From assembly GCF_032362555.1 (NCBI RefSeq), contig NC_083527.1, positions 6,882,001 to 6,946,000 on the forward strand: 64,000 nucleotides of DNA, given 5' to 3'. Below the pieces are notes generated by a model. It was not told where the DNA came from. It ran no database searches and worked only from the letters and a program-made list of their open reading frames with translations. The translations under genes and the position numbers were made by a program. How positions within the stretch are numbered: position 1 is the stretch's first letter; the number at the start of each line of letters is the position of its first letter. This document shows, piece by piece, positions 19,665 to 41,951 of the stretch. This DNA comes from Amyelois transitella (lineage: Eukaryota; Arthropoda; Insecta; Lepidoptera; Pyralidae).

Positions 19665-20152
19665 TATACAGGGTGACTTTTAATTCAACTGCATAAATTT
19701 AACTGTTAAGTGTACTCATCTAAAGGATATTTTAAAAACGTTAAAAGAAAAATATCGGTTCATATTTCAGAAAGTACGAAAAAAAATGTATCAAAATCCA
19801 CGATCCTAAATACGTCATATGACCTGGCCGGCGAAAAAGCGACGTGTAAGATTATGAGGTCAAATTTCAGAGGACATAATACATTCAGCTGAGCGATCTC
19901 GACAAGTCTGTACTTTACTTGATCTTGATGCTAGAAAAATAATTTATTTTTCAGACATTTATTTACATGTTTAGTTTTAATTTCTTTTTGTAGTATTGGT
20001 CTTTAATAAAGCGTGTGACGTAGTTTTTGAGGTTTTTTTAAATGTGAAAATGATGACGTTTAATTTAAATAAAAATAGGCTCAAACAGCTCAGAAGCATG
20101 GGTATAGTCTATGTTTAAAAGGATGCAGTTGTTTTAAATGTCACCCTGTATA
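19665..20152. mobile_element. RepI, 0.49-kb MITE with about 28-bp TIRs
   Basis: The left end TATACAGGGTGAC plus TTTTAATTCAACTGCAT is mirrored by the right end ATGCAGTTGTTTTAAAT plus GTCACCCTGTATA. Allowing a few mismatches, these are inverted repeats of about 28 bp bounded by TA. That fits a non-autonomous Tc1/mariner-like element. The internal 60-codon ORF has no transposase features. Confidence 0.82.
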
Positions 20153-20162
20153 TCTTTCTCTT

Positions 20163-20225
20163 CAAAATCACGCCTCTTTCCCGGAGGGGTAGGCAGAGAA
20201 TAAGTACAACTTTCCTCGTTAGAGA
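20163..20225 (-). mobile_element. LINE 3' terminus fragment
   Basis: AAATCACGCCTCTTTCCCGG AGGGGTAGGCAGAGA is the complement of the 3' end seen in the LINE at 53690-54012. Nothing further upstream of the element is kept. Confidence 0.7.
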
Positions 20226-20895
20226 GAACAACCAGGACTAGATTAATCAACTCTTTATCTCAGAAACCACACGGTTTACTAACTTATAATCTAATTGATG
20301 TTAGGAAAATCACTGCAGTGGTGATGGTATAATTCCGTGGTGATGAATAGTGATGATGATTGGTGACTTAACTAATCCGTCGGATTTTCTAGAAAACACG
20401 ATACGTCCGCATTCTCATTTTAATATTGTAACGTTTAAGTATTACGTAATTTGGAACTTTATTTTTTCCTGTATAAACAAATGTTTGTCTATGGAATTTT
20501 ACTTTTATATGTTTATTTTTTTTTTAATGATATAAACTGCTTTTTTTTGTGATATAAACTGTTTTCTCTTTATTAAGCGGAAAAAAACCGGTAAGGATGC
20601 AAATGGGAACACACAAATATTATGATTAAGTATTATTACCCTTATTCTAAGTAAATACTGACTATAATGTAATGATAACTAGGTAAATAATTTTGTTAAT
20701 AAATAAATATTACGAATTATTACTAAATATTTACATGTGTGAAAATATTCATTCATTTATTCATTCATATAATCACGTCTATTTCCCTAGCGGGGCCTTG
20801 GGGGGTATAGAAGTGATTATATGAATTAATCAACATTTTGTCAAATTTATTTAATAAAAATGTAACTAAAAGTCTTAATAATACAAATAAGTAAC
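20226..20895. other. Gene-free stretch with a palindromic RepA scrap
   Basis: Mostly AT-rich with no exon. At 20770-20828 ATAATCACGTCTATTTCCCT is followed by an inverted echo (GGGTATAGAAGTGATTATAT), which looks like two RepA tails in palindrome. Confidence 0.5.
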
Positions 20896-21540
20896 GTAAA
20901 GTACCCAATGTCCGACAGACCACCAATGATCGACACATAAAAAGTGAAATAAAAAAAGGATATACTAATGTTGTGTATTTGAACGTAAACGAAGCATAGG
21001 TTATACTCAAGGTTCATCCAGCTCTCATTGCAAGTGTCACTTTCTACATTCGGTTATTTTGATAAAAATGGTGGAGCTTTAAATAATGACCGGCAGAAGT
21101 TATTAACGGAAAGCCAGTTTTATTAGTGAAATCACTAAGGAGGTGAGTAAGGTCTATTGCTCATAACTTCTTTCGGTTTAAAGCTACCATTTGAAAATTT
21201 TAGGCTGGGTGCACGATTAATGGACCGTTAAATATTGGGTGTCCATAAATAGAACATGTCGATTACTAGATTTCGATTATTGGAACATGTCGAAAACCGG
21301 TTGTCGGTAAATGAATTTCTGCAGTCGAATATTAGGCCAAAAATACCATAAATCTATATTGGTATATCTTGTAAATTTTTATATCACATTCATTTCTACT
21401 TTAATATACTTATCATGCAAAATACCCTAAAATTTTACTCAAAACTTCAAAATATGATAAAATAATGAAAATAAAACAAATATTGTAAAAATACTAGAGT
21501 TCGTGCGTTAAAGTGTCGATGATTGGGGGTTTTACCGTAC
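20896..21540 (-). mobile_element. RepG non-autonomous element, copy at left edge of gene block
   Basis: The complement begins GTACGGTAAAACCCCCAATC ATCGACAC and ends GTGTCGATCATTGGTGGTCT ... GGGTACTTTAC. By eye it is about 95% identical over its whole length to 43421-44052, in opposite orientation. The two ends share an inverted CCAAT(C/G)ATCGACAC set slightly inward. Several ATCGACA motifs recur inside. No ORF is long enough for a transposase. It lies about 390 bp upstream of the OPRT start codon. Confidence 0.8.
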
Positions 21541-21617
21541 CTAGTTTATCAAATGACCTCTTAAGTCGTTGTTAGCTTAGCACTGTACTACTTTCTCCTT
21601 ATCATTTACGAATATAT

Positions 21618-21869
21618 ACATACATATTATCACGTCTATATCCCTTGCAGGGTAGACAGAGCCAACAATCTTGAAAAGACTGAACGGCCACGTTCAGCTA
21701 TTTCACTTTCAGGTACGGGACCCTAAAATTCTGTTACTAGGTACATACATACATATGGTCACGTCTATATCCCCTGCAGGGTAGACAGAGCCAACAGTCT
21801 TGAACAGACTGAACGGCCACGTTCAGCTATTTCACTTTTAGGTACGGTACCCTAAAATTATGTTACTAA
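21618..21869. repeat. Tandem duplication of about 125 bp upstream of OPRT
   Basis: Two units (21618 to about 21740 and about 21743 to 21869) each hold a minus RepA tail, then CACGTTCAGCTATTTCACTT and a segment ending in CCTAAAATT...GTTACTA. They differ at a handful of bases. The duplication ends about 65 bp before the OPRT ATG, so it occupies the putative promoter or leader. Confidence 0.85.
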
Positions 21870-21933
21870 TAATACTCACACTTTCTTTGTTACCTAGATA
21901 GTGCACTTAAAACCTCACGATCTCTTCCTCAGC

Positions 21934-23580
21934 ATGAGTACCCTTGAAGACCTGGCGGTGCAGCTGTTCGATGCTGGGGCCGTACGGCTGGGGGACATCG
22001 AGGCGAAGGTCGGGAGGCGGACACCCGTCTACTTCGACCTTCGGGTCATCGTCTCACATCCAAGGATTATGGTAAGCAGACTCTTTGCTTAAGGTTTATT
22101 ATGGTAAGCAGACTCTTTGCTTAAGGTTTATTATGGTAAGCAGACTCTTTGCTTAAGGTTTATTATGGTAAGCAGACTCTTTGCTTACGGTTTCTTCCCT
22201 GGGTAAAAATCTAGAAAGATTATTTCCTTTCCAAAGTTACTAATACACATGCGTTTTGTTCAAGCTAATTTTTATTTGAAGTTTTACGTCTTTATTAAAA
22301 AACAAATCACTGGTAGATTGTAATGGAACCAGATTTTGGAATTTTGTAAATTTAATACTTAGGTCCAGCGTTGCTAGCAATGGCGCGCGCGACGCCGTTA
22401 TTATCGCGCGGTAAACTATCACTGTCCCTTTTTACGTCATACTAAAAAGCGAAACAGCGATGGTTTATCGTGCGGTAAAAACGACGACAGCCATGCTAGT
22501 TCTGCTGGTGAGAAACATACGAGAAACCGATAAATTAAACCTTCCAAAGGTCTCCAACACAGGATTTAAGTTAGCAAGGCTAAATGCCGTGTGATTGAAG
22601 GTTCTTTTGGATGTCAAATTTTTATGTAATTAAATCAAAAAAGGTTTCCGGAGGTTGTAGATCATGGACAGTATGGCTTTGGCTCAATATCTAAACACGT
22701 TGGAGAGGCAGCATACACCTATTCTTCAGCCTTTTCAGATACTTTTTTGGAAAATAAATTGAATTAAAACGTCAATAATCACCAAGCTGGTTGTTTGTTT
22801 TAAATTTGAATTATTTCGTTTGGAAAATACATTTTGAAGAGGGTTTTTCAATTTGTTCGTCATAAAAAAGACACGTGATCATGCTCATAATATGCACCTC
22901 GAACTTAGTGAAGGCGCAACAGGGAGGCGCCAGGAGAATGCTAAAGACCATTTGTCATACCATAATTCCTCTATTAGCTAGCAGAATATTGGATAATAGC
23001 CCATTCGACACGCGGACTCCCATTGCCCAATTCAAGCGTTCATCTGACCATAACCGCTTTACAAGTAGGAAGTAACTTTTCCAATTATTTTTAGTTGGCG
23101 GTTGCAGAACACCTACAAAGATTGTCTTCAGAAATAACCCACGAGTTGCTGTGTGGCGTCCCCTACGCCGCCCTACCGCTCGCAGCCGTCATGTCAGTCA
23201 ACACCGACACTCCAATGATTATGAAAAGGAAAGAAACAAAACTTTACGCCACAAAAAAGATTATAGAAGGCGTCTACAAAAAGCACCAAGAATGCTTAGT
23301 CGTCGAAGACGTAGTGACCTCTGGTGGCAGCTTGCTAGAAACAGTTAATATATTGCGCGAAGAGGGTTTGAAAGTGTCGCATGCTGTTGTAGTTCTAGAT
23401 AGAGAACAAGGTGGCGCTAGTGTGTTAAAAGCAAATGGCGTCCATGCGACACCACTTTTTACGTTGTCCAATTTAGCAAAAATTTTAAGAGACGCCGGCA
23501 GAATTAATGATGAAACTGTAGATATAATTGCTGAACATATAAAAGTATGTCAATTCGGTATGAAAGATAACTTGGAATAA
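21934..23580 (+). CDS. Orotate phosphoribosyltransferase, stand-alone (UMP synthase N-half)
   Basis: Exons 21934-22071 (46 codons, ends ATG|GTAAGC) and 23095-23580 (TTTTTAG|TTG to TAA) give 207 residues, about the size of bacterial PyrE. The enzyme joins orotate to PRPP to make OMP in de novo pyrimidine synthesis in the cytosol. Visible motifs are VYFDLRVIVS (residues 32-41), CGVPYAALPLA (66-76), the catalytic-loop lysines in KRKETKLYATKK (90-101), the PRPP site VVEDVVTSGGS (115-125) and LDREQGG (147-153). In animals this domain is normally fused to OMP decarboxylase as UMPS. Here a stop follows the OPRT fold and no decarboxylase sequence is recognised downstream. The chosen ATG follows a TCTTCCTCAG acceptor-like sequence at 21923-21932, so a noncoding first exon is possible. 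A phase-0 GTATGT at 23545 may be an alternative donor. Family assignment is firm; independent function is inference. Confidence 0.9.
22069..22196 (+). repeat. Four tandem 32-bp copies, each with the OPRT splice donor
   Basis: The unit starts ATGGTAAGCAGACTCTTTGC and recurs at 22069, 22101, 22133 and 22165, exact except for the last copy's end. Unit 1 includes the final codon of exon 1 and the donor, so GTAAGC exists four times in a row. Use of any later donor would read V-S-R-L-F-A and stop. Confidence 0.95.
22072..23094 (+). other. OPRT intron 1
   Basis: A phase-0 intron of 1023 bp. It contains the tandem donor copies, the RepH palindrome (22383-22497), and an unrecognised ORF at 22875-23075 that ends just before the acceptor. 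No conserved motif is seen in that ORF. Confidence 0.8.
22383..22497. mobile_element. RepH fold-back element, copy 2 (best preserved)
   Basis: Arms of about 50 bp face each other. GGTAAACTATCACTGTCCC on the left pairs imperfectly with GAAACAGCGATGGTTTATC on the right, around TACGTCATACTA. It is GC-rich at its ends (GGCGCGCGCGACGCCG). It sits inside OPRT intron 1. Confidence 0.65.
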
Positions 23581-24140
23581 TATCTCGTGTTTGTAGGGTT
23601 GGTACCTATAAGATGTATAATGTAAGGTTTAAGCTGGTAGGTAACCTACCTTGCTACGTAGGTACTTACCTACTTGATTTATTTATTGATGTAAATAAGA
23701 TTTAAATGGATGGTAGGAAGATATTACATAACATTTATATTTAAATATATAATTAACAAAACTTTGTTGTATTTTTTTCTATCCTTTATATTTGTTCCTT
23801 CTACACAACTAATTATGAACCACCTGGCGACTTACTTGAAGACGCGGTTGACAAGAAAAATACTGTAGGTACCCCCAAAAATAGGTGCCCCCAATGAATA
23901 TGTACCTCACCTAATTGACCTTGACAATTCTTTTTGCTTGTTGATTTCAAAACAGACTATTTTGTTCATGTTGCATCAATCTTGTAAAGAATTTTGATAT
24001 CAAAAGATATTTGTAGGTAACCTAGGAAGGTTACACAAGTTCGACATCTCTACTAAAACCTACTCACTGCGTTGTTAAGGGTCATTCAAATCTTTTTACC
24101 CGCGCTGTCAGGGATGTATCAAGGAAAAGATGCGATGTTG

Positions 24141-24174
24141 AATAAAAGCGTTGTATAAAATCAATTAGTTTATT
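24141..24174. terminator. Convergent polyadenylation signals: OPRT (+) and tubulin B (-)
   Basis: AATAAA at 24141-24146 on the plus strand is the first canonical signal seen after the OPRT stop. TTTATT at 24169-24174 is AATAAA on the minus strand, about 450 bases after the tubulin B stop. If both are used, the two transcripts overlap by a few tens of bases at their 3' ends. 23581-24140 holds no other feature. Confidence 0.5.
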
Positions 24175-24625
24175 ATTCACCAGCTGGAATATAATTAAAA
24201 ACTTTGATCGATTCGAAAAATTACATTGTTGCTTAGTTTTTGCCACAAAGCTAATGTATGTGAAATTATCACACTGGTTACATATAAAAATTAAAACTTA
24301 GAAACTCAAGTTCAGCCTTATAAAAAAAGATCTTTCCTTTTGTGTCATCAGTGTATTCACAGCACCGGGTGGTCAGTCGAATGACTGCGTCAGGGAGGTT
24401 ATGTTTACGACGTAAACAACCGGCGAGCAGCCTTCGGTCAAGGAAAAACACTGGGAATGTGAACGTAACCATGAAACTGTAACAAAATGCTCCCTAGTTG
24501 AAACTTAAATTGTCCAGGACTTTACAAATTACATGTAAAAAAAATGCTAAGCGAAAAAATGCATACATCCCGAGAGGCGGGACGCAGTGAGGGGGAGGTT
24601 ACAGTGACTGGCGGGGATCGGGCGC

Positions 24626-30569
<5,944 letters not shown>

Positions 30570-36628: not shown

Positions 36629-41951
<5,323 letters not shown>

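Follow-up and report, generated by a model that had tools for sequence, protein, structure and literature searches.

In a 64-kb window of the Amyelois transitella genome (C23:6882001-6946000, the whole stretch of DNA analyzed here, taken from a 327-Mb assembly of 33 contigs), we identified a gene that encodes OPRT alone and that is very probably a retained paralogue of the bifunctional UMPS. In animals, OPRT and OMP decarboxylase are normally joined in a single protein, UMPS, which is rudimentary-like in Drosophila. As a complete explanation we favor, with a probability of roughly three in four, an OPRT-only UMPS paralogue that acts as a stand-alone enzyme beside an intact fused UMPS. The gene consists of two plus-strand exons, namely exon 1 (21934..22071, 46 codons, ending in phase 0) and exon 2 (23095..23580, comprising the catalytic loop, the PRPP motif, a tail and the stop codon), separated by a GT..AG intron (22072..23094, its GT at 22072 and its AG just ahead of 23095). 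Splicing yields 207 residues followed by a TAA stop, and together with structure and profile matches it confirms the complete two-exon OPRT proposed in the initial annotation. The best match of the protein among solved structures is 2wns (E 1.2e-49), identified in PMC9978035 as the human UMPS OPRT domain. Profile scores exceed the cut-offs of Pfam PF00156 (36.4 bits, cut-off 26.3) and NCBIfam TIGR00336 pyrE (115.8 bits, cut-off 106.8), and stay below those of NF010382 (181.9, cut-off 208) and of the bifunctional model NF004034 (140.5, cut-off 656). The OPRT domain of the UMP synthase 3qw4, presumably from Leishmania, is matched as well (E 8e-32); this protein is fused, with 453 residues and a C-terminal OPRT match (residues 261-439), whereas the window gene encodes OPRT alone.

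A search of the assembly for OMP decarboxylase and a second, fused UMPS, as suggested in the initial annotation, located a complete fused gene on contig C21. The PF00215 profile, searched against the whole 327-Mb assembly, matched only at C21:1712018-1712749 in two pieces; two candidates were scored, both on C21, and both matches are exons of one minus-strand gene. This gene has four exons (1713986-1713840, 1713758-1713284, 1712856-1712378 and 1712287-1711955) and three GT..AG introns, and encodes a complete 477-residue fused OPRT-decarboxylase UMPS. An assembly search with the window protein, scoring the best three candidates, gave four matches, namely both exons of the window gene and both OPRT exons of the C21 UMPS. 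Two OPRT loci are hence present among the candidates scored, and a very diverged third copy may exist given that the best candidates alone were scored. Of the origins considered beforehand, the extra OPRT-only paralogue is the one borne out by these two loci and the fused gene on C21, whereas half of a gene broken by rearrangement, in the sense of a lost working gene, finds no support. The window protein is homologous to UMPS through almost all of the N-terminal OPRT half (residues 2-196), but a decarboxylase half is missing: exon 2 runs into a tail of ~11 residues, from about residue 197, that bears no clear similarity to UMPS, and then reaches the stop. UMPS, understood as OPRT fused to OMP decarboxylase, therefore does not include the window gene.

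Both gene structure and trees trace the window gene back to UMPS. In each of the two genes, intron 1 follows an identically aligned methionine, in phase 0 (after ..HPRIM in the window gene and ..YPDVM in UMPS); this favors duplication at the genomic DNA level over a retrocopy or a transfer from bacteria, and a processed retrocopy is rejected because intron 1 is present where UMPS has it. The two proteins share 94 of 196 residues (48%), and they group together against other OPRTs with ultrafast bootstrap values of 86%, 96% and 85% in trees of 6, 10 and 19 sequences, respectively. The window protein has its single-domain architecture in common with stand-alone PyrE-type OPRTs of bacteria and yeast, but differs from them in descending, by intron and tree, from the animal fused gene. 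A more apt description of the gene than a broken half is an old copy of UMPS exons 1-2, the 5' part. Duplication at the DNA level of UMPS exons 1-2 together with intron 1 would have created the OPRT-only gene and, in the simplest account, loss of the exon 2 donor would have led to read-through into the former intron up to a nearby stop. Exon 2 of UMPS, with its phase 1 end, is spliced to the decarboxylase exons, and homology of the paralogue stops near residue 196. A donor-like site at 23558 shares phase 1 with UMPS intron 2; it scores under the consensus threshold and could be what is left of the former exon 2 donor. No DNA similarity to the UMPS region that would support read-through was found at the end of exon 2, and blastn of window positions 20000-25600 against the 10-kb stretch around the PF00215 matches on C21 found no duplication borders. 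In coding DNA, this comparison recovered a single stretch, 204 bp of exon 2 at 66%; the remaining rows are mainly interspersed repeats 5' of the gene, one upstream 39-bp match at 97% and short weak matches. The duplication may predate the insect lineage; the two genes of this genome are the only arthropod sequences in the trees.

As a stand-alone enzyme, the protein would convert orotate and PRPP into OMP and pyrophosphate, and UMPS would then decarboxylate the OMP supplied by the paralogue. We take R99, K100, D124 (or E), D125 and R156 of E. coli OPRT to be catalytic or PRPP residues. K26 and K103 of the same enzyme are described as essential for catalysis in PMC10087573. All seven have counterparts in the window protein, where K26, R99, K100, K103, D124, D125 and R156 correspond to K25, R91, K92, K95, E117, D118 and R149, with E accepted in place of D124. 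The catalytic-loop and PRPP motifs reported from the sequence are likewise present in exon 2, as R91, K92 and K95 and as EDVVTSGGS (residues 117-125). R91, K95 and D118 match residues identical in 18/18 other OPRTs; K25 (K in 13/18), K92 (K in 12/18) and R149 (R in 13/18) are kept too, and the E for D exchange at E117 is common here (E in 11/18, D in 7/18). E. coli K73 is replaced by A71, a position occupied by T or A in the five other compared sequences as well. The catalytic lysines, loop arginine and PRPP aspartate of E. coli PyrE are thus retained, but the catalytic-loop glycine (E. coli G106), present in 18/18 other OPRTs, is an alanine (A98); this glycine is conserved in our sample and lies outside the formal definition of the family. 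The G110 position, G in 16/18 others, is occupied by H. Activity may be altered by A98 and G110H; overall, we lean toward real OPRT activity of the window protein.

Departures from otherwise invariant positions were compared among relatives (notation: consensus residue, window-protein position, window residue). In a sample of six relatives, the paralogue alone departs at 4 of 25 columns (F19L, S26V, G98A and G110H), and the reverse test in the same sample identified no residue peculiar to UMPS. In a wider sample of nine relatives, from which locus L004 was left out as the same gene as L016 and in which loci L011-L013 were also unused, it departs at 4/29 invariant columns (F19L, G98A, G110H and I115V), the S26 position being variable among these relatives. 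Leave-one-out counts are 5/34 for UMPS, 2/31 for human, 7/36 for L005, 1/30 for L014, 0/29 for L015, 0/29 for L016, 2/31 for L017, 3/32 for L018 and 10/39 for Leishmania. Given this range (0/29-10/39), the 4/29 of the paralogue is not exceptional, and it is the loop glycine that stands out.

The glycine change would suit altered catalysis, and hence an OPRT-like subunit without enzymatic function, or with a regulatory one, that would form pairs with the UMPS OPRT domain and alter its activity or assembly. Two papers offer a structural setting for such pairing: the flexible loop reaches the active site of the neighboring subunit in most OPRT structures (PMC10087573), and in human UMPS it appears to be mainly the OPRT domain that drives a reversible switch to inactive condensates (PMC9978035). 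Retention of the tested catalytic and PRPP residues speaks against a regulatory subunit, as does, according to PMC9978035, the seeming activity of human OPRT in the absence of OPRT-OPRT contacts, and we regard this alternative as unlikely. Slightly more doubtful still is a broader proposal, in which an OPRT-only partner would tune UMPS by mixed OPRT pairing, or would independently make OMP or phosphoribosylate other pyrimidines, for example diet-derived ones. If true, a UMPS-tuning partner would uncouple two steps that are normally held together in animals. Under the stand-alone paralogue that we prefer, nature would offer, in an old and constrained OPRT-only duplicate beside an intact UMPS, an example of the first activity possibly being supplied separately; it could serve to examine the reason for the fusion of the two steps and any effect of free OPRT on OMP levels or UMPS assembly. 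The gene is a curiosity of metabolism, not a new system, and represents neither a broken nor a split pathway. In the open-licence literature, the titles and abstract beginnings among the matches listed contained no OPRT-only UMPS paralogue in insects.

Sequence divergence between paralogue and UMPS is high. Over 197 aligned codons, the last six aligned codons (tail) having been dropped as unalignable, pS is 0.87 (saturated) and pN 0.36, and of the 38 fourfold sites whose codons agree in the first two bases, 29 differ. When the UMPS OPRT was evolved neutrally to the same nucleotide identity, 0 of 2000 simulations remained stop-free (mean 11.3 stops), and the highest protein identity across these runs was 30%, compared with 48% observed; in the simulation a single lineage takes all the change and the base composition is an assumption, but the margin is wide. 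We therefore conclude that selection preserved the window protein during much of its past. This constraint would cover much of the divergence and not necessarily the present day. The branch of the paralogue is about twice that of UMPS (1.05 vs 0.48 and 0.97 vs 0.45), which fits relaxed constraint as well. Relative-rate comparisons with four outgroups gave 27/17, 15/14, 29/15 and 29/17 unique changes for paralogue and UMPS (chi-square 2.27, 0.03, 4.45 and 3.13), one of the four exceeding 3.84.

The long branch would also be expected of a gene that was conserved until recently and is now a pseudogene or silent, and an unusual donor region adds to this reading. A 32-bp unit in four tandem copies (22066..22193, plus strand) spans the junction of exon 1 and intron 1 and contains the exon 1 donor, so that the array holds donors at 22072, 22104, 22136 and 22168, all starting GTAAGCAGACTC. 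Only the first (22072) keeps the frame; the other three lead to an in-frame stop after six codons, and tandem donors of this kind could reduce correct splicing. Recent loss is nevertheless improbable, a shade more so than the regulatory subunit, in view of 207 open codons, intact GT and AG ends of intron 1 and a protein identity above that of every neutral run. The 32-bp array could be a polymorphic or poison-splicing site. Further upstream, a 129-bp repeat is present in two tandem copies at 21616-21868, just 5' of the OPRT start, and relatives of this repeat also occur around the UMPS gene on C21. Exon 1 stands apart in GC3 (74%) from exon 2 (40%) and from the OPRT part of UMPS (27%).

A split UMPS, with OPRT here and a separate decarboxylase elsewhere, had been raised from the sequence and would agree with the lack of a decarboxylase in the window, which holds. 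A yeast URA3 query of the 64 kb found no credible decarboxylase, its best match having an E of 0.68 and an internal stop, and the decarboxylase half of this genome's own UMPS found nothing there at E 5; the latter query recovers its own gene in the C21 stretch at E 0.0, a control by construction only. A donor-like GTATGT inside exon 2 (23545..23550, plus strand) agrees with the consensus at 7/9 positions, in phase 0, at the end of the homologous part, and the PF00215 search found no decarboxylase exon on C23 reachable from it. Splicing to decarboxylase exons farther along the chromosome, the case named in advance as refuting an OPRT-only gene, has no candidate exon, all PF00215 candidates lying on C21. 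The pathway is not split, because the sole decarboxylase found sits in the fused UMPS gene with its own OPRT exons, and we give a split UMPS hardly any weight.

Equally negligible is horizontal transfer of a bacterial OPRT: bacterial sequences are up to 54% identical to the OPRT part of the C21 UMPS, and L004 41% to the window protein, but the intron position and phase common to UMPS and the grouping with UMPS in all three trees stand against it. Two bacterial OPRTs, recovered from 97 candidate stretches in a scan across contigs of prokaryote genomes, served as outgroups, and the viral contigs scanned contained no relative. L004 stems from Candidatus Magasanikbacteria and the L014-L018 genomes from the same phylum, which we take to be Patescibacteria; 13 of 145 genomes searched have a match at E 1e-20. 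With the OPRT part of the C21 UMPS, the OPRTs of L014-L018 share 47-54% identity, which is about as much as the human one (50%).

Downstream, the OPRT transcript would end before the coding part of a convergent tubulin gene. The 3' coding exon of this gene, with its stop, lies on the minus strand at 24626..25936 (Pfam), so the convergent tubulin of the initial annotation is real; the distance of 0.6 kb given there does not apply to the coding end, which at 24626 is ~1.05 kb from the OPRT stop. A separation of 0.6 kb fits the nearest facing AATAAA on the tubulin strand (24174-24169, minus), a candidate tubulin poly(A) signal. It faces the candidate signal of the OPRT gene (24141..24146, plus), the sole plus-strand AATAAA in 23581-24640. 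Further minus-strand AATAAA motifs are located at 23687 and 23683, within the 3' region of the OPRT gene. With the candidate 24174 signal, OPRT and tubulin transcripts would end side by side, and with 23687 or 23683 they would overlap. The tubulin genes of the window are presumably of beta type. The second one, at 36632-37933 (minus, Pfam), lies on the same strand as the first, and the two are identical at 418 of 420 compared residues and 91% identical in DNA over 1290 bp, which suggests strong purifying selection, perhaps together with gene conversion.
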